Positions 12,153 to 47,945 of a stretch of 64,000 nucleotides of DNA are shown in pieces. The stretch lies in contig CAIVZM010000065.1 of NCBI GenBank assembly GCA_903910385.1, positions 62,001 to 126,000 on the forward strand, in the 5' to 3' direction. Below the pieces are notes generated by a model that saw only the letters and a program-made list of their open reading frames with translations, ran no database searches and was not told where the DNA came from. Source of the DNA: an uncultured Armatimonadota bacterium. Lineage in GTDB: Bacteria; Armatimonadota; Armatimonadia; Armatimonadales; Armatimonadaceae. Each line of letters starts with the position of its first letter. Positions within the stretch are counted from its first letter, which is position 1. The position numbers were made by a program, and so were the translations under genes.

Positions 12153-12246
12153 AATAGATCTCCTCTTCGTCACCCATTCGCCAGCGGCGAATGGGTGACG
12201 CCGCTTGAAATATCTTCTTGATACACTCTTCACAAGAATTTTTCGC

Positions 12247-16323: not shown

Positions 16324-17612
16324 AGCAAATTTGGCATTACACAAAAATTATCATCATAGTAATCACCGCAGCAACACATTTGACTGGCTCTGCAAATGCT
16401 CAAACCACATCGGCAGGCACCAAAATAACGGGACCCCTGACAACTGTTGCGACACCTTCCTATCGTATTCAACCCGATGATGCGTTGGATATCAGCTTGG
16501 TTGGTGAATCAGATATGATGCGAAGCGTGGTCGTGCTTCCCGATGGAACTATCACATACCCCTACCTTGGAACATTCAAAGTATCGGGGTTAACGGTAGC
16601 GGAAGTCAACCAGCGTATTACAGCTCGGCTTGCTAAACAATTTGTCAACCCAAACGTCACTGTCAGCGTCAGCAAGCGACAAGAGAATTATGCAAGCGTC
16701 CTGGGTTCAGTAAAAACACCGGGCAAGGTTATTTTAAAAGATGGATGGCGCGTTCTGGAAGTATTAGCGGCAAGCGGCGGCCTTACTGTCGAGCGGAACG
16801 ATTGGGCGACAGCGACCCTCGTCCGCAACGGCGGTTTGGAAGCGATTCCTATTAATCTTGGAGCTCTTTTGAATAAGGCGGACTCATCGCAAAACTTCCC
16901 GGTAAATTCAGGAGATATTCTTCTGGTTAACGCCCTACAGCTGACTCAAACCCATGCCCAGATTCTGGGAGAGGTCACTCGTCCTGGTAGCTATCCGATT
17001 CCGTCAGATGGATCCATTGTAACTATGGTAGCTTTAGCTGGTGGCGTGACTCCCCAAGCGGCGCTCACTCGGGCTATTATTCGTCGAGAAGGCAAAGAAA
17101 TTCCTGTAGATTTGCTCCCCATCATTCGTAAAGGTCGCGAGGGTGTTACAGAGACTGCTTCGACAAACTCAACGTCATCGCCACGACTTCAACCAGGCGA
17201 CACCTTGGTTATCCCTGACAATGTCACAAGATTTGCAGTGCTTGGAGCGGTTACCAAGCCAGGGGCTATTTTATACCCTGAGGATAAAAGCATCAATGTT
17301 CTTGAAGCGTTATCTATGGCTGGGGGACAATCCAGCGATGCCGATATGCGTAAAGTCTATCTGATTCGATATAGTCCGAATGAAGTTAACAATGGTAAGT
17401 CTGTAAAGCCAATCAAGCTGGATTTGAGTGCTGATGCGCTTCGTGAATCTAATAGCAAAAAGAACAAAGAACAAAATAGCAAACAGACCCCATTACGAAT
17501 TACAATGTCTCCAGGCGACGTTTTGGTGATAGGGAGTAAAAATCCCAGAAACACCACGTGGCAAGATCTGGCTTTAGCTTCCCAACTTTTTGTTAATCTA
17601 CGGCGCTTCTAA
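16320..17612 (+). CDS. Polysaccharide export protein (Wza-like, SLBB domains)
   Basis: The 430-residue protein starts at a GTG that overlaps the kinase gene stop. The N terminus is a signal peptide (about residues 1-28), followed by the poly-export domain (YRIQPDDALDISLVGE, VLPDGTITYPYLG, ANQ-type beta region). Several SLBB segments follow (ASVLGSVKTPGKV, AQILGEVTRPGSYPI, FAVLGAVTKPGAI). It should form the periplasmic/outer-membrane channel for polysaccharide release together with the Wzc-like kinase. No lipobox cysteine is evident after the signal peptide, unlike E. coli Wza. Three full SLBB-like units make it longer than the shortest family members. Confidence 0.92.
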   Translation: MKQIWHYTKIIIIVITAATHLTGSANAQTTSAGTKITGPLTTVATPSYRIQPDDALDISLVGESDMMRSVVVLPDGTITYPYLGTFKVSGLTVAEVNQRITARLAKQFVNPNVTVSVSKRQENYASVLGSVKTPGKVILKDGWRVLEVLAASGGLTVERNDWATATLVRNGGLEAIPINLGALLNKADSSQNFPVNSGDILLVNALQLTQTHAQILGEVTRPGSYPIPSDGSIVTMVALAGGVTPQAALTRAIIRREGKEIPVDLLPIIRKGREGVTETASTNSTSSPRLQPGDTLVIPDNVTRFAVLGAVTKPGAILYPEDKSINVLEALSMAGGQSSDADMRKVYLIRYSPNEVNNGKSVKPIKLDLSADALRESNSKKNKEQNSKQTPLRITMSPGDVLVIGSKNPRNTTWQDLALASQLFVNLRRF

Positions 17613-17634
17613 GTTCATTAACCGATTATTTTCT

Positions 17635-19032
17635 ATGTCCACTCAACTTACTGGTCAACCTGTAATCAACCGTTTGGCAAAAAGTTTAGGTGCTCAAACA
17701 TTATCCCAGATAATGAATATGGCAATACAAATTTTCAGCGTTCCGATTTTTCTCCATTATTTAGGTATAAATCGGTATGGTGAGTGGTTGTTGCTCTCTA
17801 CAATTCCAACTTACCTTACAATGTCAGATCTAGGATTCGCGAATGCAGCGGGCAATGAAATGACAATGTTCGTATCTCGTGGCGAACGTAATATGGCCGT
17901 AAAAGTCTATCAAAGTGCATGGGCAATAGTAACAATTACCACATTTGTCCTATGTTTAATTATGATATTGATTCTTTCTCATATTTATTTGTCAAAGTAT
18001 CTAAACATTAAGGCTTTTTCAGATAACGAATCTTCGTGGATTCTTTCGATACTGATCGCGCAAGTGTTTTTTGCTTTACAATCCTCTCTTCTTGTTACAA
18101 TTTATCGGTGCGACGGTAATTATTCTCTGTCAGTTCTCCGGAGCGCATTCCAAAAGCTTGCAATGTTTATAGGGATCATAGTTTGCTTAATATCAGGTAT
18201 AGGTCTACTTGGAGGTTGCACGACATCTCTTGTCATTGAAATTATAACCAATCAAATTATTCGATATGATATTAAAAGTCGTAGTCCATGGATGACTTTT
18301 GGTTGGGCTGAAGCGGATGTCAGCACCGCGTTGCGCCTAGCAAATCCTGCTTTTGCTTATCTAACGCTACCACTCGGATGGGCTCTAAATTTACAAGGTA
18401 TGTCCTTTTTAGTTGGCACACTCCTAGGTCCTTCCGCTTTGGTTGTTTTTTCCACATTGAGAACATTGAGCCGTTTACCTTTCCAGATAACGAATTCTAT
18501 ATCAAATAGTATTTGGGTCGAAATGTCAGTCGCTTTCGGGAAAGGAGATATCCGTCTTGCTCGGACGCTACATAATCATGCTTGCCAAATTTCATTATGG
18601 TTAGTATTGATTGCAGTGTCATTCTTGTTCTTATCAGGCAAAATAATATATACTATATGGACACATGGAAAGACAAATTATGACCCCCTACTATTTTCGA
18701 TTTTGCTAATGGCTACGGTAGCATCATCAATCTGGCAGCCAAGTTCTATCGTTGCTGTCGCTCGTAATAAACACCAGAAATTCGCTCTAATATTCGTAAG
18801 CATCATCTGCCTTACTTTAATTGTCGCATGGAGTCTCGGATCGCGGCTTGGAATTACGTTTATTGGACTTTGTATTTTCTCTTGTGATTTTGTCATTTGC
18901 TTGTTTGTCATTCCAATGTCGTTAAGAATTTTGAACGAGGATACTGTTAGCTTTTTCCTCCAAATTATTTCTCCGCCTCGTCATTTAACTCAAAGAGTAT
19001 TTAGCAAGCTTTACCTGAACAAAACTAAGTAG
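17635..19032 (+). CDS. Polysaccharide flippase, Wzx/MATE-like
   Basis: The protein has about 465 residues and 12 or more hydrophobic segments. It would flip undecaprenyl-linked repeat units across the inner membrane. The opening GAQTLSQIMNMAIQIFSVPIFL and the following GEWLLLSTIPTYLTMSDLGF are typical of the polysaccharide transporter (PST/Wzx) family. I chose the ATG at 17635 because the ATG at 17590 lies inside the preceding gene. From here to about 20.3 kb the DNA is distinctly more AT-rich than the start of the locus, suggesting a different origin. Confidence 0.85.
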   Translation: MSTQLTGQPVINRLAKSLGAQTLSQIMNMAIQIFSVPIFLHYLGINRYGEWLLLSTIPTYLTMSDLGFANAAGNEMTMFVSRGERNMAVKVYQSAWAIVTITTFVLCLIMILILSHIYLSKYLNIKAFSDNESSWILSILIAQVFFALQSSLLVTIYRCDGNYSLSVLRSAFQKLAMFIGIIVCLISGIGLLGGCTTSLVIEIITNQIIRYDIKSRSPWMTFGWAEADVSTALRLANPAFAYLTLPLGWALNLQGMSFLVGTLLGPSALVVFSTLRTLSRLPFQITNSISNSIWVEMSVAFGKGDIRLARTLHNHACQISLWLVLIAVSFLFLSGKIIYTIWTHGKTNYDPLLFSILLMATVASSIWQPSSIVAVARNKHQKFALIFVSIICLTLIVAWSLGSRLGITFIGLCIFSCDFVICLFVIPMSLRILNEDTVSFFLQIISPPRHLTQRVFSKLYLNKTK

Positions 19033-19142: not shown

Positions 19143-20333
19143 ATGAGGTTTCTGGTGTTAAAAGTATCAATTGCAGTCGGAGGGAAATTTCACCTATTTC
19201 ACCTTGCTCGACAATTAGAGCAAAAGGGTCTACTTAATCATATCGTTTCTTCATATCCTAGGTATAAGCTCACCAATGAAAATATATCCTCAGGAAAACT
19301 AATTAGTTTTCCATACATTCACCTAGCATGGATGATGCTTAGTCGTTATGGATTGGAGAATATGAAATTGGCACAAGATATTTCATGGCGACATTATAAT
19401 ACATTAGACTATGTGTCCAAAATAAACCTTGGAGATTCCAATGTTCTAGTAGCGTTATCTGGGGTTGGTCTTAAAGCTGGTCATGAAATTCAAAAACGAG
19501 GAGGTATATATTTATGTGATCGTGGCTCTTCACATATTAGGTATCAAAATAATATACTTTCTGAAGAGTTTGAAAGATGGCGCATACCATATCGCCCTAT
19601 AGATGCCCGAAAGATTGTTCGAGAAGAATCCGAGTATCAACAAGCAGATGCTATTACAGTACCATCTGACTTTGCTCGTAATTCGTTTATTCAGCAGGGA
19701 ATTCCTGCCGAAAAGTTATATCTGACACCTTATGGAGTAGAGCTAAGTCGTTTCTTCCCTGTGGCCGAGCCTGATCAAGACTCTTTTAACATCACTTTTG
19801 TGGGATCAGTGTCTTTGAGGAAAGGCGTTCCTTATCTCTTGCAAGCTTTTGCAGCTTTTCGCCACCCTGCGAAGCGATTGAGAATTGTAGGGAGTATTCA
19901 AGAAGAGATACGACAACTATTGAATGACGGGACTTTACCAACGGACAATGTGGAATTTTTAGGTCCACTCCCCCATATGGAACTTAAAAATATTTTAAGT
20001 TCTAGTCATGTCTTTGTATTACCTAGTATAGAAGAAGGTTTAAGTTTAGTGCAAGCTGAAGCAATGGCATGTGGTTGCCCGGTAATCAGTTCGGATAATA
20101 CTGGTGGACGGAACCTGTTCCATGAGGGCGTAGAGGGGTTTATTGTCCCTATTCGTGATCCTATGGCTCTTACAGACCGTATTGAATGTCTGGCCCAAGA
20201 CCCTCAACTTCGATCTAAAATGAGCGTTGCAGCAATCAATCGTGTAAAGGAACTTGGAGGTTGGGACACATATTGCGACAGATACATCTCGGTTATCGAG
20301 CATGTTTCTAAATCGACATGTTCGAGGAATTGA
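19143..20333 (+). CDS. Glycosyltransferase family 4 protein
   Basis: This 396-residue GT-B enzyme has ITVPSDFARNSF and TPYGVELSRF at the domain junction, FVGSVSLRKGVPYLLQAF at the start of the donor domain, and the GT4 E-x7-E motif region LPSIEEGLSLVQAEAMACG near residue 292. Donor and linkage are unknown. The gene matters for the neighbourhood: a decayed second copy of its C-terminal half lies about 80 bases downstream (20414-21136). Confidence 0.85.
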   Translation: MRFLVLKVSIAVGGKFHLFHLARQLEQKGLLNHIVSSYPRYKLTNENISSGKLISFPYIHLAWMMLSRYGLENMKLAQDISWRHYNTLDYVSKINLGDSNVLVALSGVGLKAGHEIQKRGGIYLCDRGSSHIRYQNNILSEEFERWRIPYRPIDARKIVREESEYQQADAITVPSDFARNSFIQQGIPAEKLYLTPYGVELSRFFPVAEPDQDSFNITFVGSVSLRKGVPYLLQAFAAFRHPAKRLRIVGSIQEEIRQLLNDGTLPTDNVEFLGPLPHMELKNILSSSHVFVLPSIEEGLSLVQAEAMACGCPVISSDNTGGRNLFHEGVEGFIVPIRDPMALTDRIECLAQDPQLRSKMSVAAINRVKELGGWDTYCDRYISVIEHVSKSTCSRN

Positions 20334-20364: not shown

Positions 20365-20413
20365 AACCTTGATTTCAGGATTTAACGTCTTATGCAAAAA
20401 CGATATCGTGTTG
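20365..20413 (+). repeat. 49-bp direct repeat, copy 1
   Basis: This segment (AACCTTGATTTC ... TATCGTGTTG) is identical to 23962-24010. It holds the upstream leader and the first codons (MQKRYRV) of the glycosyltransferase gene at 23989. Here it is fused directly to the middle of a decayed unrelated glycosyltransferase and reads only MQKRYRVGS before a stop codon. Confidence 0.95.
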
Positions 20414-21136
20414 GTTCCTAGCTCTTTCGTTAACACGTTCTTTCATATAGATTGAAGTCCAAGAGGATAAAATTCACGTAACATTACGGCGTAGATTTAT
20501 CGTGCGTTACTGCAATAGATTCCCTAAATTTAGACAGATTCAATGTCTTGTTTGTTAGCTTTGTCTCTTTGTGAGAGGGCGTTTCTTATCTACTAGTGAC
20601 ATTTCCACTTACGCGTCATCCCGTAAAAAATAACGTTGGTCGGCACAATAGATGCAGAGGTGAAGAGTTTGATCGAAAGTCGCATTAAGCAGAGTGACTC
20701 AATTGTCGGTCACTACCCAAAACCACATTTCAAAGAAAATATATGCAGGCAGTACGTTCTAGTATTGCCAAACATTAAGGAATTCCTTACACTTGTGCTG
20801 GCGCAGGCGATAGCATACAGTTATCTTTTTATCGCAAGTTCGTCTATTGGATCAGTCAACCTATTCACGGATGGAGAAGAGGAATTTATTACAGTTCCAC
20901 GCAATTTCGAAGAGCAGACGAAGCGTTTACGATGCCTGGCAGGTTTACCACATGAATGGGAAGACGGAGTAGCGAGAGCTATCCTCCTAGGGAAATCTCT
21001 TGGCGCAAAGGATGACTGCGGGCAAAATTATATCGCAATGTTCCAAAAGATATGCTTCATGACTGCAACTGTCATCAACGCGACAGACGTTAATAAAATG
21101 ACTTACAAGGCTTCAAGTAATACAAATGTCAAATGA
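20414..21136 (+). pseudogene. Decayed GT4 glycosyltransferase, C-terminal half, paralogue of the gene at 19143
   Basis: Reading across several frames, this stretch aligns by eye with residues about 172-392 of the intact upstream gene. VPSSFVNTFF matches VPSDFARNSF, HYGVDLS matches PYGVELS, and RFNVLFVSFVSL-EGVSYLL matches SFNITFVGSVSLRKGVPYLL with one internal TGA. HPVK then meets a frameshift in an A run, followed by LVGTIDAEVKSLI matching IVGSIQEEIRQLL, and VLPNIKEFLTLVLAQA matching VLPSIEEGLSLVQAEA. The last 166 codons form an open frame (20636-21136), but the active-site region has lost its glutamates. Homology to the neighbour is seen directly; loss of function is inferred. Its tail overlaps the start of the methyltransferase gene. 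Confidence 0.85.
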
Positions 21137-21908
21137 AATTCCAGAAGATTGGAAAGGTCGCCTGTATGTACACTATGTTTCCAGTGGGCAGGCTAACGCG
21201 ACTGAAACTACCGCAAGGAGCAACTTCACTGTCCGTGCGGCTTATATTCGCTCACTAATTGGTAGACATATACCTTTAGATCGGAAAGCTCGTATTGTGG
21301 ATTTGGGCTGCGGACACGGAACTTTCCTATATTTTCTCAAAGAGGCCGGGTATCGCAATATCGCAGGAGTAGATATTTCACAGGAACAGATCGAACTTGC
21401 TCATCAGTTGGGCATTCTAGAGGCGCAAATCGGAGAGGTCATCCCTTTTCTGGAGGAATCAGAGCCTGCGTCTATAGATGCCTTTCTGCTCATTGACGTG
21501 ATAGAGCATCTTACGAACAATGACATGTTTCGAACTTTAGATCTGGTTTACCGAGCGCTTCGCCCCGGCGGAAGATGCATAGTTCATGTTCCCAATGGCG
21601 AGGGGTTATTCGGCATGGGTGTGCGTTATGGCGACCTGACCCATGAGAATGCGTTCTCTACCATGTCCGCCAGGCAGTTGTTTTCAACCATCGGTTTCCG
21701 CGACATTCATACTTTTGAAGACAAGCCAATCGTGCATGGCGCGAAAAGTCTCATCAGGCGTATTATCTGGGACTTTAGCACCTTCTTCTTACGTGCGCTC
21801 TATATGGCGGAAACGGGCTCGTCGAACGTTATTCTGAGCAGAAATATGGTAATAACCGCAATTAAGTCAGGCGATCCCGCGAAAGGAGTACGGGCAGATG
21901 CTGGTTGA
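21126..21908 (+). CDS. Class I SAM-dependent methyltransferase
   Basis: The 260-residue protein has the SAM-binding motif I VDLGCGHGTFLYFL (about residues 58-71), the acidic motif II AGVDISQEQIELA, IDVIEHL, and the post-motif LRPGGRCIVHVPN. This is the UbiG/Methyltransf_11-23 type commonly found in polysaccharide loci, where it may methylate a sugar hydroxyl or a chain terminus. The target is unknown. It starts inside the tail of the decayed glycosyltransferase and overlaps the following membrane gene by 11 bases, so the two are probably cotranslated. Confidence 0.85.
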   Translation: MSNEIPEDWKGRLYVHYVSSGQANATETTARSNFTVRAAYIRSLIGRHIPLDRKARIVDLGCGHGTFLYFLKEAGYRNIAGVDISQEQIELAHQLGILEAQIGEVIPFLEESEPASIDAFLLIDVIEHLTNNDMFRTLDLVYRALRPGGRCIVHVPNGEGLFGMGVRYGDLTHENAFSTMSARQLFSTIGFRDIHTFEDKPIVHGAKSLIRRIIWDFSTFFLRALYMAETGSSNVILSRNMVITAIKSGDPAKGVRADAG

Positions 21909-23433
21909 TTCCTCACTTGCCTTGCCAGAGCCTGCCTCCACAAGAATAATTGACAATATAGTACGTCATCCCGTACTTTACTGGATTATTGGCGGCACAT
22001 TACTATTTGGCCTGCAAATTCTGATAAACGGCGTCGAAATTCTCTATGCAACCCTAGTCTTTGGCTTTGTTGTAGCAACAGGAGTAGCCTTGAACGCGTT
22101 GGGCGGCATTACCACATTGCCCGGTCTTTGTGTTTTTACTCTGGCGCTTCAGCATGTGTTGATATCGCAGGTGGCGAAACTTTGCTTTGGCGAACCGGCC
22201 GATGTACCTCTTTCTCAGCCAATCGCCACGATGGCGGTTTATTGTATAGGAATGGTCAGTTTACTAGCAGCATCTCTAATTGTCCAACGTCATCATGTCA
22301 TGGAAAGGATAAGCCCCGTTTTTCGGGTAGAAGAGGTTAAAAAGCTAACCCAGACACAACTGTTCGCACTGGTTCTGATGACCATAGTATTTGCCACATT
22401 GCGATCCCTAATCATTGCAATGATGGGTATGTCAGAAGATGGCGAAGTGGTTAGCGGAGGTATTCTGGGACCTCTCAAAACGATGACCTTTCTGACGCCG
22501 TTTTCCGTCGCTCTTTCAACCTACTATGTAATCAAAACCAGCGGTGGCAGGCATAGTGTGGGCTTGATCAATGGGGTCGCTCTGGGAATACCGATGATCT
22601 TCGGCATCATTGGAGCTGGACGTGCGGCTACGGCAGGTGCGTTGGTCATTTATGTATATACCTGCTTCGCCTTTGGGTATCGCTTTCGTCCCCAGAATTA
22701 TATAGCGCTCGCAGGATGCGCTTATGTTTTCCAGTTCATTATTTCCCCCTACGCGCTCATAGCGCGAAATCAAGTACGAACCTCAGACTTTGGAATGAAT
22801 TTTCGTCTTGCTTCAGAGCTTCTTGTCGAAGTTGCGCTCAACCCAGGTGAGGCAGCAGAGAGTGAGGCAAAAAAACAGGCTAGTAATAGTGCACATCAAT
22901 ACTTTAGTTCCTTTCTTCCAACCTTAGAGCGTTACTCTATGCTGATGAACGTCGATGCTATTGTGAATGCGACACTGCAAGATGGCATCACCCAATGGGA
23001 AACTATCACTCCAGGTATTGAGATGCTACTTCCACGTTTCCTCTACTCTGACAAACCGGTATACGGCACTGCCAACTTTCTTGCTCATCGGGCGCTTGGA
23101 TTAGTCGGTGAGGATGATATGACCACTCAGGTTAATCTGGGCTTTTTTTCAGATGCCTTTAGTAGTTTCAAATGGTTGGGCATTTCCGTTATTCCTTTCA
23201 TGATCCTAATTTTACTAACCGTTGCTTATCAGAAAACAGTTGGATGCCAATTACGGAACAATCCATACAGTATTGCCGTTGCCTTCTCACTGCCATGGGT
23301 ATTCTCGGAGACTACAATTGCATCACAGATTGCGGTAATATTCCAAACACCTATACTATTCCTTGTAACCTTAATTATGATTCACCGAATGTCTAAATTC
23401 TTATCACCCCATATAACTGCAAATTTCACATAA
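21898..23433 (+). CDS. Multi-pass membrane protein, probable polysaccharide polymerase (Wzy-like)
   Basis: The 511-residue protein has about 10-12 hydrophobic segments. One long hydrophilic loop (about residues 290-375) contains FLPTLERYSMLMNVDAIV and a proline/arginine patch (PGIEMLLPRFLYSDKP) typical of Wzy-type periplasmic loops. Sequence conservation among such polymerases is low, so the call rests on topology and on position between a methyltransferase and glycosyltransferases in a Wzx/Wzy-type locus. A decayed copy of its C-terminal portion lies at 25487-25719, suggesting that an allele or paralogue was replaced here. Confidence 0.7.
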   Translation: MLVDSSLALPEPASTRIIDNIVRHPVLYWIIGGTLLFGLQILINGVEILYATLVFGFVVATGVALNALGGITTLPGLCVFTLALQHVLISQVAKLCFGEPADVPLSQPIATMAVYCIGMVSLLAASLIVQRHHVMERISPVFRVEEVKKLTQTQLFALVLMTIVFATLRSLIIAMMGMSEDGEVVSGGILGPLKTMTFLTPFSVALSTYYVIKTSGGRHSVGLINGVALGIPMIFGIIGAGRAATAGALVIYVYTCFAFGYRFRPQNYIALAGCAYVFQFIISPYALIARNQVRTSDFGMNFRLASELLVEVALNPGEAAESEAKKQASNSAHQYFSSFLPTLERYSMLMNVDAIVNATLQDGITQWETITPGIEMLLPRFLYSDKPVYGTANFLAHRALGLVGEDDMTTQVNLGFFSDAFSSFKWLGISVIPFMILILLTVAYQKTVGCQLRNNPYSIAVAFSLPWVFSETTIASQIAVIFQTPILFLVTLIMIHRMSKFLSPHITANFT

Positions 23434-23639
23434 GGAAAAACACGATAAATAGCAGGGGTATTTTATATTAATTTGGCTCAAGATATTTAATTTACTTCGC
23501 TAGACTTTGTTACGGTTGTCAAACGAGGTTGTGTCGTTAGGATAAATCACACATTAACTTTTAAATTGATATAATATAAAGCTATGTTTATGATAATATG
23601 AAGTTGTGTGCATTTTGCGAATCTCATTACCGGTACTCA

Positions 23640-23926
23640 TGTTTCGTGGAGGGGATAATGGCTTTGGTGTCGGCGGAAGGTGCCGATCGCTTTGGACTTA
23701 TTCGAACGTGGTGTGCATAAGGCGACACTTGCCTTTGACTTGGTGGATGGTTGCTGAACAGAGTTGTTGCCGGAGCGAGTGATTGGCAGGTGCCCGCCTG
23801 CGGGTGAAGGCTTATGATAGCGACGGTCTGGATGAGCGATTGTAGACTGAGTTGGGCGTGAAAATCAACATACAAGTATGGGTACACGCGGCGCGCTGGG
23901 AGAACCGCAAGAAGGCAAGGCTCTAA
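23640..23926 (+). pseudogene. IS5-family transposase remnant
   Basis: A short degraded piece reads KAYDSDGLDERL, an in-frame TAG, then TELGVKI and ENRKKARL. This matches the IS5-type segment in which DxDyDSDxLR is followed by an aromatic or lysine-rich ANRKK block. No complete reading frame or paired inverted ends remain. The base composition is richer in GC than its surroundings. The remnant lies between the intact polymerase gene and copy 2 of the 49-bp repeat. Confidence 0.6.
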
Positions 23927-23961
23927 ATTTTAAGTTACTGTCTTTCTTTCAATTTTCTTAC

Positions 23962-24010
23962 AACCTTGATTTCAGGATTTAACGTCTTATGCAAAAACGA
24001 TATCGTGTTG
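23962..24010 (+). repeat. 49-bp direct repeat, copy 2
   Basis: Identical to 20365-20413 and 3,597 bp away from it. In this copy the ATG at 23989 opens an intact glycosyltransferase gene, so this is the parental context and copy 1 is the displaced one. Confidence 0.95.
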
Positions 24011-25245
24011 CTTACTTAGTGTCCCATCCTATTCAATACCAAGCTCCTATGCTACGCTATCTTGCAAGCAAGAGTGATATTGATCTAACAGTCTTTTTTC
24101 AAAGTGATTTTTCTTTGAAAGCTTATCGAGATCCTGGTTTTGGTCAAAATGTGCAATGGGATGTATCATTGCTGGATGGGTACAAGTCTTTGCTACTACC
24201 AGCTATTGGAGGGCACGGTACACAGTCCTTTTTTCGTCCATTCAATACAGATTTGACGAAAAATATATCACGATCAAATTTCGATGCATTATGGATTCAT
24301 GGTTATGCACATACAACCACTTTGCGTGCACTCTTTATTGCTAAATCTCGGGATATACCAGTTTTAATTCGGGCAGAGTCTCAGTCGAGTAGCGCTGTTC
24401 GATCTCCGCGAACAGCAAGAATCAAGGAGACGTTCCTCCGCATGTTGTTTAGGCAGTCTGATGCATTCTTGGCGATTGGTTCACGGAATCGTGACTACTA
24501 CCGTCAGTACGGTGTGTCGCCTGATCGTATATTCTTGATGCCATATGCAGTAGACAACGCATTTTTTCAGTCGAAAGTCAACGAAGAACGAAAAAGAGAA
24601 GAGGAATTTAAGAACAAACTAGGTCTTACGGTCGGTCGTCCTGTAATTCTTTATGCATCCAAATTCATCGCTAGAAAACGTGCTGGTGACCTTCTTGAAG
24701 CATATATTCGTATGTTTTCTAAAAGTGGTCAGGAACCACGTCCGTATCTTCTCTTTATTGGCGACGGTGAGGAGCGCCAAATCGTTGAGGAGCGGGCACG
24801 CCAGACAGGATGGGATTCGATTCGATTTTTAGGTTTTAAGAATCAAACTGAATTACCAGCATACTTTAATTTGTGTGATGTCTTTGTGCTTCCCTCTGAA
24901 AAAGAACCTTGGGGTTTAATAGTTAACGAAGTGATGAATGCAAGCAAACCCGTCATCGTTAGTAACGGCGTGGGCTCTTCTGATGATCTGGTACAGGATG
25001 GGATCAATGGATTTATTTACCCAGTAGGAAATATAGACGCCCTTGCAGATCGATTGCATAGAGTTCTGTCAACTCCAGCCTTCAGACTGAAAATGGGTGA
25101 GCACAGTCGTCAAATTATTGATCAATGGGGTTTTAAGGAGGACTATCTTGGTCTTCAACAAGCGCTAAATTTTGTAACTCGTAATACAGATACACCGATC
25201 CTTAATAAATCTCGCTACCCCAACAGTCGCCCAAGAAAAGCTTGA
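23989..25245 (+). CDS. Glycosyltransferase family 4 protein
   Basis: The protein has 418 residues. The opening RVAYLVSHPIQYQAPMLRYL is a recognisable start for a GT4 subgroup found in O-antigen and capsule loci. The donor domain includes PVILYASKFIARKRAGDLLEA, LLFIGDGEERQ, and the E-x7-E region LPSEKEPWGLIVNEVMNASK. Its first codons and leader are duplicated at 20365-20413. The donor sugar is unknown. It is followed after one base by a decayed acyltransferase fragment. Confidence 0.87.
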   Translation: MQKRYRVAYLVSHPIQYQAPMLRYLASKSDIDLTVFFQSDFSLKAYRDPGFGQNVQWDVSLLDGYKSLLLPAIGGHGTQSFFRPFNTDLTKNISRSNFDALWIHGYAHTTTLRALFIAKSRDIPVLIRAESQSSSAVRSPRTARIKETFLRMLFRQSDAFLAIGSRNRDYYRQYGVSPDRIFLMPYAVDNAFFQSKVNEERKREEEFKNKLGLTVGRPVILYASKFIARKRAGDLLEAYIRMFSKSGQEPRPYLLFIGDGEERQIVEERARQTGWDSIRFLGFKNQTELPAYFNLCDVFVLPSEKEPWGLIVNEVMNASKPVIVSNGVGSSDDLVQDGINGFIYPVGNIDALADRLHRVLSTPAFRLKMGEHSRQIIDQWGFKEDYLGLQQALNFVTRNTDTPILNKSRYPNSRPRKA

Positions 25246-25246
25246 T

Positions 25247-25490
25247 ATGATTGTAAAGACAGATCAATCACCTGCGGATTCTACATCATTGCTATTGGCA
25301 TGCTTGCGCCCAATCAACGGAACAACAGAACTCTTATTCTTAGATGGTATTAAAGGCCCAGTAGCGTTATATGTGTTGATTCATCATGCGAGACGTGTTA
25401 TTTGCGAGGGATACAATGAAGGTTTTATGAAACATCAAGACTCATACACACTTCTCTGAAAGTTACAAGTTTATCTGTCTTTTCTATTCG
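25247..25490 (+). pseudogene. Acyltransferase 3 (OafA/YrhL-like) fragment, N-terminal piece
   Basis: A 70-codon open frame contains ELLFLDGIKGPVALYVLIHH, which matches the signature start of acyltransferase-3 membrane enzymes (LDGxRGxAALxVxxHH). GYNEGFMKHQDSYTLL follows, then a stop at 25457-25459. The frame past the stop (KLQVYLSFLF) still looks like the same family before it runs into the decayed polymerase. A full enzyme would have about 350 residues and ten helices, so this is a broken piece without function. Confidence 0.7.
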
Positions 25491-25719
25491 ATAACGGCTG
25501 TTCGGCAGAAAACTGTCGGATGCCTGATGTGGAATAATCCGTATCGCTTTCGCCTTTTCCCTCCCTTGGGGATGTTCAGAGAAAACAATCGCCATGCAAA
25601 TTTTCATCGTATTTCAAACGCCACTGATCAATATTGTAATATTCTTCCTAACCCTCTGGATACCGATTATTTTGTCGCCCAGAATGGAAGCCCATCTGAC
25701 GCAGGATAGGACAGTCTGA
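25487..25719 (+). pseudogene. C-terminal remnant of a second Wzy-like polymerase
   Basis: Two frames joined near 25545 match the end of the intact polymerase at 21898-23433. TAVRQKTVGC matches TVAYQKTVGC and WNNPYR matches RNNPYS. After a frameshift, AFAFSLPWGCSEKTIAMQIF matches AVAFSLPWVFSETTIASQIA, and IVFQTPL matches VIFQTPI. The remnant ends with TGA at 25717-25719, immediately before the next glycosyltransferase start, so an older polymerase gene once ended at this point. The similarity is read by eye and is strong over about 60 residues. Confidence 0.82.
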
Positions 25720-26883
25720 ATGCGAGTGCTTCTAGTGGGGAATTTCGCCTCCGACCAGCAGTTAAGTATGCTTGGGTTCGCGCGAACTCTAGGGGGAGGT
25801 CTTGAGTCTCGCGGGATGTCGATTCAGCATATTTCTGCTACCCCAAAACTTTCACTTCGACTCAAATCTACCAATCGAGGACTGGGCAAATGGCTCGCCT
25901 ATTTGGACAAGTACGCACTCTTTCCGAGCCAGTTACGCCGGGCGGCGCAGAATGCTGATATCGTTCATGTCTGTGACCAAGGTAATGGCATCTACATGCG
26001 ATACCTTCAGGATAAGCAGCACCTGCTCACCTGCCATGATCTTCTAGCGGTTCAGGCAGCTCAAGGTGACCCTAGATTATGGTCTGTCTCCAGCACAGGT
26101 AAGCTCTATCAACGATTGATCTGGAGTGGCATTCGAAAATCGCGAAATGTCGTCTGCATCTCTAAGCAGACAGAGCGAGACCTTGACCGCTTGCTTGTCG
26201 CTGACCCAGTGGTTCGACAGGAAAGTCTTAAACCTTACCATGTGTGCATAATGCATAGCCTGTTTTCTCCCTTTTATCCGGAATCCACGGCGGTTCGGCA
26301 GGCAGCTCGAAACAAAGTTGGCCTTGGAAACGACAGCCCCTTCCTGATCCATGTCGGCGGTAATCAACCTTATAAAAACCGTGCCGGCTTGCTATCTATC
26401 TTCGATGCTTTACGGCGGCACAAGGATGCATCCAAAGGCCTCAAACTCCTGATGGTAGGTAGCAGGCTTCCGGAGGAACTTCATCGTTTTATTGACGAAA
26501 GAGGTTTAAAAGATCATGTTATAGAACGCTCGGGTATCGATAACGATACGCTTCGAGCACTTTATTCTGAGGCTGCTGCACTGATATTCCCCTCGACATT
26601 TGAGGGGTTAGGCATGCCAATTCTGGAGGCTCAGGCAAGTGGTTGCCCGGTTTTCACCACCAACCGCGCTCCAATGACTGAGGTTGGCCGGGATGTCGCC
26701 CGCTATTTCGACCCGGATGAGCATGAATCGGCAGCCGATATCATTGTTCGCGGCCTCACCGACCTAAAAGACACCACGGATCGCGTTCAGCGTGGTCTGG
26801 AATATATCGAAGCTCATTTCCGCCCGGAACGGATGGTCAGCGACTATCTGCGTCTATATGAGAAAATTACAAAAGAAAAATAA
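25720..26883 (+). CDS. Glycosyltransferase family 4 protein
   Basis: The protein has 387 residues. It starts MRVLLVGNFASDQQLSMLGF, with the acceptor-domain segment DIVHVCDQGNGIYM. The donor domain has LIHVGGNQPYKNRAGLL and the glutamate-rich motif FPSTFEGLGMPILEAQASG, both classic for GT4. Codon usage here is closer to the GC-richer start of the locus than to the AT-rich 17.6-20.3 kb stretch. It begins directly after the stop of the decayed polymerase remnant. Sugar specificity is unknown. Confidence 0.87.
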   Translation: MRVLLVGNFASDQQLSMLGFARTLGGGLESRGMSIQHISATPKLSLRLKSTNRGLGKWLAYLDKYALFPSQLRRAAQNADIVHVCDQGNGIYMRYLQDKQHLLTCHDLLAVQAAQGDPRLWSVSSTGKLYQRLIWSGIRKSRNVVCISKQTERDLDRLLVADPVVRQESLKPYHVCIMHSLFSPFYPESTAVRQAARNKVGLGNDSPFLIHVGGNQPYKNRAGLLSIFDALRRHKDASKGLKLLMVGSRLPEELHRFIDERGLKDHVIERSGIDNDTLRALYSEAAALIFPSTFEGLGMPILEAQASGCPVFTTNRAPMTEVGRDVARYFDPDEHESAADIIVRGLTDLKDTTDRVQRGLEYIEAHFRPERMVSDYLRLYEKITKEK

Positions 26884-26912
26884 GGAATCGCAACAAGCGT
26901 TATTTACATATT

Positions 26913-27221
26913 ATGATCTCAGTTGATTCTAAGATGGGCGAAACGGTTGAGAGTATCAAGCAGATGTCATCCTTCACCACCAGACTGGCATACCAGCCGG
27001 AGGTCACCACTCTGGATGCACCCGACGCACCTTTGCTCGCCGATCTCCCATTGCGTGATTCTTCGACGACGGCGGCGCATCCGCTGAATGATCTGACCTT
27101 AGACAGCACGCGCTTCGGGTCGCGCTCAAACTCGAAAAACTCCCCACAGACGACAACAGGATTGAAAAAACAGATTTCAACGACTACCAGTCACAGGGAG
27201 CAGGAAGATAGAAGGCTATGA
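26913..27221 (+). pseudogene. N-terminal glycosyltransferase fragment
   Basis: The first half of this 102-codon frame, ETVESIKQMSSFTTRLAYQP followed by EVTTLDAPDAPLLADLP, matches the N terminus of the glycosyltransferase at 33818 (GGPVEGIKQLSSITQRMGFM, then PEVVSLDDPKEAYLNTFP). The usual start before the glycine-rich loop is missing, and beyond residue 50 the frame loses resemblance. A different frame over 27100-27206 reads like a natural charged C terminus, so this may be a junction of two gene ends. It overlaps the next gene start by four bases. I regard it as a non-functional scar. Confidence 0.6.
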
Positions 27222-31711: not shown

Positions 31712-31904
31712 TTTGATATCTTGTATGCAGGGCATGCCCGTGTGTTACAGGAGGTTGCACGAACGGCTAACAGGTTGTTTGTCGCTGTGAATTTGTATGA
31801 GTCCATCTGCCGATTGAATGGCCCCGAATGCCCCATTATGCCACAAGAAGAACAATAGACGTAACTTTCCGCGCTAAAGCGTGTTATGAACTTATGTTGT
31901 AGAT

Positions 31905-32312
31905 TTGTGGTTGATGAACCGCAAACCCTACCCTATCGATGTTTCCGATGATGAGTGGGCCTTTGTCGCCCCCTACCTGACTCTGATGACGCCGGACGCC
32001 ACCCAACGACGCTACGAAATGCGTGAGATATTTAACGCCGTACGATGGATTGTTCGAGCCGGCGCTTTCTGGCGACTGCTCCCGACCAACTTTCGGGTAC
32101 CCTTAGGGTGCTGGGAGGCGATCTATCGGCAAATGCAACGCTGGATCAAGGCGCAATGCTTCGAGGCCATTGTCCATGACCTGCGGGAAATGCTGCGCCT
32201 CGCACAAGGACGAAATCAAGAATCCTCTGCCGTGATTCTGGACTCCCGAACGTTGCGCTCCACACCAGAGAGCGGCGGGTTCCCAAGCCTTCGTGGGAGG
32301 AATGGGCTTTGA
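31905..32312 (+). CDS. IS5-family transposase, first frame (OrfA)
   Basis: This frame gives 135 residues in the supplied reading; a start at 31917 ([20 protein letters not shown]) is more natural. [18 protein letters not shown] and [13 protein letters not shown] match the N-terminal half of IS5-family DDE transposases, with the first catalytic Asp in LDSRT. After the SGG the frame reads [10 protein letters not shown] and stops, where intact relatives continue into a GYDGHK-like segment now found in the next frame. Confidence 0.85.
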
Positions 32313-32781
32313 CGGTCACAAAAAGACCAAAGACAGCAAAGTCCATATCGCGGTGGACACTCTGGGACATCTTCTGGTGGTGTTGGTGACGCCTGCCGAT
32401 GAGGATGAGCAAGACCGAGCGCAGATGGGGCAACTGGCACAACGTGTCCAAGAGGAGACCGGCCAGAGCGTGGAGATTGCCTTTGTTGACCAGGGCTACA
32501 CTGGGCATACGCCCGCACAGGCGGCAAAGCACGAGGGCATAGACCTATTTGTAGTGAAGTTGGAGGAAGCAAAGAAGGGATTTGTTCTGTTGCCGCGTCG
32601 TTGGGTTCACAAGTGTGTGAACGAGGTGGTGGAGCGTGATTTTGCGTGGTTGAGTCGTTTTCGACGATTGGCGCGCGATTATGAGCGCCTGCCAGAGACG
32701 TTAGCGGGGATTCATTTTGTGGTGTTTGCGGTTTTGATGCTGGCGCAAGTAGTTGCTCATACCATAAACCTACCAACGTAG
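32293..32781 (+). CDS. IS5-family transposase, second frame (OrfB)
   Basis: This is the C-terminal half of the DDE transposase: [32 protein letters not shown] with the second catalytic Asp, [15 protein letters not shown] with the catalytic Glu, and [20 protein letters not shown]. Between RRW and VVER there is an extra seven-residue block (VHKCVNE) absent from relatives I know, encoded by a perfect small palindrome. Expression would need frameshifting from the first frame. Activity is doubtful. Confidence 0.8.
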
Positions 32782-32962
32782 TTCATAACACGCTTTAAAA
32801 TGTGTGGATGCACTGATTATGTTTGATCAAGATACGCCGGAAACGCTTTTAAAAACTATTTGCCCGGACTTCATGATTAAAGGAGGTGACGACACTCCAG
32901 AATCGGGGTTATGGATTTCTTAACGTTGATGTTGTATAATTAAAGGCACGATAGCTCTGTAG

Positions 32963-33817: not shown

Positions 33818-35038
33818 ATGGATAGTAGAATGAGATATCTTCATATTTATGTTAGCCTTAATCCTGCGCTCGGCGGTCCAGTCGAAGGAATTAAACAACT
33901 GTCATCCATTACTCAAAGGATGGGTTTTATGCCGGAAGTTGTCAGTCTAGATGACCCGAAAGAAGCGTATCTTAACACTTTCCCATGTCCTGTTCACGCA
34001 CTTGGTCCCGGGATGGGATCATATCATTATTCTGCACGCCTCATTCCTTGGCTGATTGAGCATGCATCAGATTATCAAGGGTTCATTCTTGACGGAATCT
34101 GGTCTTACTCATCATTTGGTGCTTATCAAGCTCTTCGGAGAGTAAATCGCCCATATATAGTATTTACGCATGGAATGCTTGATCCTTACTTCAATCAGTT
34201 TCCTCTGAAGCGATTAAAGAAAATGTTGTATTGGCCATGGTCGGAGTACCGCGTCTTAAGGGATGCAAAGACGGTTTGCTTTACTACTGATGAGGAACGT
34301 ATCCTCGCCAGGCAATCGTTTTCTCCGTATCGTTGTAAAGAAACGGTCGTTAATTTCGGTACAGCCGGTCCATCACGGTTAGAGGAAGATCAGGTCAGAC
34401 AAATTAAAACTTTTTACGAGGAGTTTCCTCAGCTAAAATATAAACGTTTCCTCCTTTTTCTTAGTCGTATTCATCCCAAAAAAGGTTGTGATTTACTTAT
34501 TGAAGCATGGGGTAAGCTAGCGTCCCAATATCCCGATATCGATCTAGTGATAGCAGGACCAGATCAGATAGGATGGCGTTCAACTCTGGAAAAACGGGCG
34601 CACGCAATGGGTATAAGCGAGAGAATTATCTGGACTGGAATGCTTCAGGGGGATCTTAAGTGGGGAGCCTTCTTAGCTGCGGAAGCGTTTATTCTGCCTT
34701 CACACCAAGAGAATTTTGGCATAGTTGTTGCCGAATCGCTTGCTTGTAACACGCCCGTTTTGTTAACTGATAAAGTTAATATATGGCGAGAAGTCACAGC
34801 AGATAACGCAGGTTTAGTGGCGAGCGATACAGTTGACGGCATCACCGATCTAATGCAACGTTGGCTTGTATTGCCGGAACTTAAACGACAAGAAATGAAA
34901 AGGCAAGCGTTACGATGCTTCCTTAACCGTTTTGAAATCCAACGAGCTGCGGAAAGTCTCCTTAGCGCACTTTTTGACCAATCGTTTATTTCTTCAGGGG
35001 TCAATGACGCTTCTTCAACGGCTGAAAACTCCATGTAA
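33818..35038 (+). CDS. Glycosyltransferase family 4 protein
   Basis: The protein has 406 residues, or 402 if the ATG at 33830 (MRYLHIYV) is used. The N terminus has the glycine-rich acceptor loop LNPALGGPVEGIKQLSS. The donor domain has LLFLSRIHPKKGCDLLIEAW and LPSHQENFGIVVAESLAC with the GT4 glutamates. A decayed fragment of a relative lies at 26913-27221. It is flanked on both sides by IS1-like debris, so it may have arrived with or been isolated by those insertions. Confidence 0.87.
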   Translation: MDSRMRYLHIYVSLNPALGGPVEGIKQLSSITQRMGFMPEVVSLDDPKEAYLNTFPCPVHALGPGMGSYHYSARLIPWLIEHASDYQGFILDGIWSYSSFGAYQALRRVNRPYIVFTHGMLDPYFNQFPLKRLKKMLYWPWSEYRVLRDAKTVCFTTDEERILARQSFSPYRCKETVVNFGTAGPSRLEEDQVRQIKTFYEEFPQLKYKRFLLFLSRIHPKKGCDLLIEAWGKLASQYPDIDLVIAGPDQIGWRSTLEKRAHAMGISERIIWTGMLQGDLKWGAFLAAEAFILPSHQENFGIVVAESLACNTPVLLTDKVNIWREVTADNAGLVASDTVDGITDLMQRWLVLPELKRQEMKRQALRCFLNRFEIQRAAESLLSALFDQSFISSGVNDASSTAENSM

Positions 35039-47871: not shown

Positions 47872-47945
47872 TAGCGATGGAGGGACTTGAACCCCCGACA
47901 CCGCGGGTATGAACCGCGTGCTCTAACCAGCTGAGCTACATCGCC
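47872..47945 (-). tRNA. tRNA-Met (anticodon CAT)
   Basis: The minus-strand sequence folds as a 74-nt cloverleaf. The acceptor stem is GGCGATG with CATCGCT (one G-U pair), the D arm AGCTCAGCTGGTTAGAGC, the anticodon stem CGCGG/CCGCG around loop TTCATAC, and the T arm GGGGGTTCAAGTCCCTC, followed by discriminator A. The anticodon is CAT. The first acceptor pair is G-U rather than the C-A mismatch of initiators, so it is an elongator; a lysidine-modified tRNA-Ile2 cannot be excluded. No CCA is encoded. Confidence 0.93.

Follow-up and report, generated by a model that had tools for sequence, protein, structure and literature searches.

The question raised by this locus is whether a conspicuous direct repeat around a pair of surface-polysaccharide genes marks the arrival of those genes, or something that happened to the locus later. 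The window, meaning the whole 64-kb stretch of DNA that was analysed, contains the 49-bp sequence AACCTTGATTTCAGGATTTAACGTCTTATGCAAAAACGATATCGTGTTG at both 20365-20413 (R1) and 23962-24010 (R2), and sequence comparison found no mismatch between the copies. Their starts lie 3597 bp apart. The first-pass annotation of this DNA, which had described a perfect 49-bp direct repeat framing 3.6 kb with a methyltransferase and a polymerase-like gene inside, was therefore correct in both respects. Extending the pair by 6 bp to the right gives 53 identities in 55 positions, and no homology is present to the left beyond the 49 bp. The only directly repeated 30-mers in the window are 20 overlapping ones, all from this pair; hence R1 and R2 constitute its sole directly repeated sequence of at least 30 bp, which excludes chance. 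The 4.47-Mb assembly has these two copies and no other, and the exact 49-mer was absent from the viral contigs searched.

The features of the locus, in the order in which they are read, are as follows.

17590-19032, forward strand: wzx, a Wzx-like flippase (23-36% by tblastn in relatives, frequently adjacent to GTA; GC3 0.34).
19143-20333, forward strand: GTA, an intact GT4 glycosyltransferase (Pfam Glycos_transf_1, 1.2e-31; GC3 0.30).
20365-20413, forward strand: R1, the displaced copy of the GTB leader and start (an exact repeat, and with R2 a pair unique in the genome).
20402-20413, forward strand: GATATCGTGTTG, the candidate microhomology at the join, from a profile test.
20414-21136, forward strand: GTA', the relic of another GTA-type glycosyltransferase, of which it keeps the C-terminal half (E about 1e-21 in a tblastn search with residues 197-394 of GTA).
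21126-21908, forward strand: MT, a SAM-dependent methyltransferase (Pfam Methyltransf_23, 3.3e-15).
21898-23433, forward strand: wzy, a membrane protein of polymerase-like character, so named because its position is conserved.
23620-23926, forward strand: a tentative IS5-like transposase fragment, KAYDSDGLDERL...NRKKARL (weak tblastn match to an IS5-family transposase, E 0.2).
23962-24010, forward strand: R2, the GTB leader and first seven codons in their native place.
23989-25245, forward strand: GTB, an intact GT4 glycosyltransferase (Pfam 1.9e-33; GC3 0.335).
25491-25701, forward strand: wzy', a frame-shifted relic that keeps about 70 codons from the end of another wzy (E 2.4e-11 in a tblastn search with residues 440-511 of wzy).
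25720-26883, forward strand: GTC, an intact GT4 glycosyltransferase, which in several relatives comes after wzy.
26895-27200, forward strand: GTE', the relic of another GTE, of which it keeps the N-terminal part, immediately behind GTC (tblastn E 1.4e-9, and alignment).

A 49-bp word shared by unrelated sequences could in theory have caused a false join, and the window does come from a contig (C65) of a draft assembly in 84 pieces. However, this explanation is highly improbable. When 80 contig ends were compared, disregarding those of contig C79 as apparently masked (N), exactly 141 bp were found to be common to many pairs of ends. Such an exact, fixed overlap is what a de Bruijn assembler leaves when its last k equals that length, here 141. 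The final k-mer was therefore nearly three times the length of the repeat, which would have posed no ambiguity in the final graph, making an assembly error unlikely. In addition, the relic to the right of R1 runs unbroken into MT and wzy.

The relatives of this bacterium provide the context in which these genes can be read. Searches for wzy and GTA in 291 genomes of the phylum, followed through a tblastn map of 15 loci, found a recurrent order of wzx-GTA-wzy, often then GTC and/or GTE. GTA and wzy precede GTC in four loci (L081, L082, L084 and L088) and GTE in ten (L078, L080-L085, L088, L090 and L092), while wzx stands directly before GTA in six (L080-L084 and L089). The exceptions are three loci where GTA stands apart from a wzx-wzy pair (L086, L087 and L091), and one in which wzx lies between GTA and wzy (L078). 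Matches to wzy were present in 20 of the 291 genomes, including its own, the best of the others being 42% identical, and in most relatives wzy adjoins GTA. Neither wzx nor wzy matched Pfam or NCBIfam at the thresholds used, and hence both names rest on position and general character. One genome (G016) carries a GTA ortholog that is 51% identical, and GTB has orthologs in four (G105, G154, G151 and G152), lying directly upstream of GTA in G151; in the map of 15 loci this order is seen in L088. In genome contigs, the search for GTB returned nothing beyond distant GT4 genes.

The window departs from this order, running wzx, GTA, R1, the GTA' relic, MT, wzy, the tentative transposase fragment, R2 with GTB, the stretch at 25246-25490, the wzy' relic, GTC and the GTE' relic. 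Three genes of the module are thus present in pairs (GTA and GTA', wzy and wzy', GTE and GTE'), with one member of each decayed. Both wzy', just before GTC, and GTE', just after it, sit where an undisturbed module would have wzy and GTE. The intact GTE is at 33818-35038, 7 kb further on, and hence this end of the module appears to have been split, or replaced, by a second block, from the epimerase at 27218 on. This interleaving of two partial versions implies that genes of two modules were combined, such that the locus would hold two partial versions of one exopolysaccharide module, drawn from two putative source modules. The stretch at 25246-25490, between GTB and wzy', contains a 70-codon frame that is perhaps another gene fragment, for which the search found no relative. 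Among the 291 phylum genomes, none was close enough to represent a donor or a strain in the unmerged state; comparison of the whole 7.8-kb region with 60 relatives returned one weak 165-bp match, and no strain either with or without the segment; and no intermediate state of the locus was present in the genomes searched.

The two copies of the repeat differ in what they are attached to. R2 is the native start of GTB, comprising 27 nt of leader, the ATG and the next 19 nt (in all seven codons and one base), in agreement with the initial description of the repeat as the leader and first seven codons of the glycosyltransferase at 23989. R1 begins 31 nt past the stop codon of GTA (20333), and the frame from its ATG closes after nine residues, MQKRYRVGS. 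R1 thus encodes only a nine-residue dead end, and probably has no function. Searches of the copies found no stable hairpin or fold, scans for promoters and terminators did not outperform shuffled sequence, and the 49 bp gave no Rfam match. The only Rfam match in the window is a tRNA gene at 47872-47945, on the reverse strand. Separately, a near-perfect 33-nt palindrome between two genes at 12168-12200 is likely to be a terminator.

Directly after R1, with no gap, comes VPSSFVNTFF, which corresponds to VPSDFARNSF in GTA (residue 173). From there the rest of a GTA-like gene follows, matching GTA (19143-20333) from about that residue, with stops and frame changes; an open frame within it, 20636-21136, overlaps the start of MT. 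The upstream copy is therefore fused to the middle of a different, decayed glycosyltransferase, just as had been claimed. At the end of R1, the 12 nt GATATCGTGTTG encode D-I-V-L in the relic's frame, immediately before VPSSF, and the GTA family has D-x-(I/V)-x just before VPSxF at the same site. In the profile test, which applies to the right end of R1 only, a score this high was reached by about 0.7% of 12-mers drawn at random from the window (p 0.007, of modest significance). From this fit, GATATCGTGTTG may have been a microhomology used at the join. If so, the piece truly copied may be only about 37 bp, the remainder having already been part of GTA'.

This fusion allows the ages of the repeat and the relic to be compared. 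GTA' was aligned with 16 GTA sequences, including the window's own. In the near-invariant columns after the join, 18 of 38 are changed in GTA', and none of 38 in the intact GTA. Neutral simulation indicated that 18 changes would need about 0.16-0.4 substitutions per site, and the three stops in the 222 codons of GTA' fit about the same range. Over that time, the chance of a free 49-bp stretch remaining unchanged is 0.0004 or less, and that of a 36-bp stretch about 0.003 or less, presuming that R1 was unconstrained, that R1 and R2 were not homogenised by recombination, and that GTA' decayed in place. As GTA' is so eroded while R1 still equals R2, the repeat is probably younger than the relics, and than the merging of the modules. 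Hence R1 was most likely joined beside a gene that was already dead, rather than being the scar of an original insertion. The proposal that the repeat is a recombination scar by which genes were inserted is thus upheld in one part, since the junction is chimeric and genes of two modules appear to be combined, and is not supported in the other, as the repeat probably does not mark the arrival of those genes. A tandem duplication of one GTA-to-wzy block would also have joined the start of GTB to the middle of GTA, but would not account for a GTA' and GTA of only some 35% identity beside a repeat of 100%, and was rejected on that ground.

The same dating bears on the main rival, in which half of GTA', MT, wzy and the IS fragment were inserted as a unit between an adjacent GTA and GTB, duplicating 49 bp of the GTB start. 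Removing the segment would leave GTA, 58 nt and then GTB, which is a normal gene junction. Furthermore, wzx, GTA and GTB share a low GC3 (0.30-0.34), whereas that of MT, wzy and GTC is 0.43-0.50, and GTA and GTB may once have been neighbours, as they are in G151, though there GTB is on the other side of GTA. Nevertheless, we regard this account as unlikely. Firstly, if GTA' and wzy' decayed after the insertion, then R1 should have diverged too. Secondly, if they were already dead, then the recipient would previously have been without a wzy of this family. Thirdly, the target-site duplications known for transposons are far shorter than 49 bp, and the segment has no recombinase gene. It also lacks other hallmarks of a transposon: there are no terminal inverted repeats at its ends, the sole transposase sequence is the tentative fragment, and its larger open reading frames are MT, wzy and the relic, with no integrase among them. 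No target-site duplication or excised form was found.

Some further observations concern composition and mobile sequences. The neighbouring MT, wzy, GTC and epimerase genes have GC3 values of 0.43-0.52, well above those of wzx, GTA and GTB. The IS5-like fragment at 23620-23926 has no Pfam match, and no other copy in the genome. The surrounding 23434-23961 was considered as a copy of an extant insertion sequence of the same genome, which was ruled out by the lack of a second copy; against plasmids it gave no DNA match, and just a weak protein match. Elsewhere in the window, an IS5-family element at 31875-32797 is bounded by imperfect inverted repeats of about 37 nt, and has overlapping transposase frames (31905-32312 and 32293-32781, with DUF4096 and DDE_Tnp_1) that are perhaps read by frameshifting.

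GTB, or a larger piece with it, could also have been duplicated to begin with, and a later deletion could have taken out the first copy from its codon 7 on, ending in the relic GTA' at GATATCGTGTTG. This would yield exactly the observed join, with its candidate microhomology, and a native GTA-leader-GTB left flank, and would fit the low GC3 of GTA and GTB. Yet it invokes two events, including a recent duplication of GTB that has left no other trace, and the left side has no homology beyond the 49 bp; we consider it a still less probable history than insertion as a unit.

It had also been suggested that the 3.6-kb segment could still excise. In E. coli, direct repeats shorter than 200 bp are deleted independently of RecA (PMC2991278), and hence excision between the 49-bp copies is possible in principle. 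The loss of pneumococcal capsule genes through recombination between flanking repeats, in that case IS1167 (PMC3541774), offers further precedent for a maintained switch, in which the copies would remove or circularise MT and wzy through excision or phase variation. Yet there is no sign of this in the locus: the contig is continuous over both copies, no integrase or other recombinase is nearby, the copies have no stable structure, and R1 is fused to a wrecked gene. Nor would excision be a minor loss, as the genome has no second member of the MT family (at E<=1e-30), and no other intact member of the wzy family. We consider such a switch very improbable, and attach equally little weight to the related idea that ongoing recombination keeps the copies identical, with the segment being lost and regained in the population as a change of polysaccharide type.

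We therefore favour, with a probability of roughly 0.6, the reading of R1 as a late rearrangement scar within a merged locus, rather than as the edge of a mobile or excising unit. An outer module, wzx-GTA...GTB-wzy'-GTC-GTE', and an inner module, GTA'-MT-wzy, would have merged in one locus, after which each redundant pair kept one gene intact, while its partner (GTA', wzy' or GTE') became a relic. A later illegitimate rearrangement, of a microhomology type, would then have put a copy of the GTB leader and start between GTA and GTA', by then already dead, with loss of the part of GTA' that preceded about codon 173. The gap left by this deletion may have been bridged by DNA copied from the GTB start, 3.6 kb downstream, with copying returning to the relic at the shared GATATCGTGTTG. 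That R1 arose by such a template switch is a tentative suggestion, and the order of events is likewise reconstructed from the present arrangement. The reading that needs least is nonetheless one illegitimate event, in already dead sequence lying between GTA and MT. The history of this locus is thus of an ordinary kind, with one well-resolved scar. In a bacterial lineage that has been little studied, it offers a clear example of two module versions within one surface-polysaccharide locus, in which the spare copies are readable as fossils. It also illustrates that a striking repeat may frame genes without recording how they arrived, as the neighbouring relic's age speaks for a later origin of the repeat.

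The arrangement resembles several known systems, and is identical to none. Like the target-site duplications of transposons, or att sites, the direct repeats flank a segment with cargo genes. However, these are 49 bp long, accompanied by neither a complete transposase or integrase nor terminal inverted repeats, and they are part of a gene that is intact at only one of the two places. There is also a likeness to microhomology-mediated template switching, or templated insertion at deletion joins, in having a short nearby copy, a candidate short homology at one end and no mobile element, although here the process is deduced from one sequence, with a 12-nt homology on one side only. At the level of the whole locus, the parallel is with the capsule loci of Streptococcus pneumoniae and its relatives, which include the 33B/33C mosaic, and cps loci that carry pseudogenes and remnants of transposases (PMC3541774, PMC6332807). 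In both, a polysaccharide locus is assembled from different versions of one gene set, and retains dead genes and transposase remnants, the one here being tentative. Whereas the donors and strains of the pneumococcal mosaics are known, the equivalent record in this bacterium consists of old relics, and one join bearing the 49-bp displaced start of a gene.
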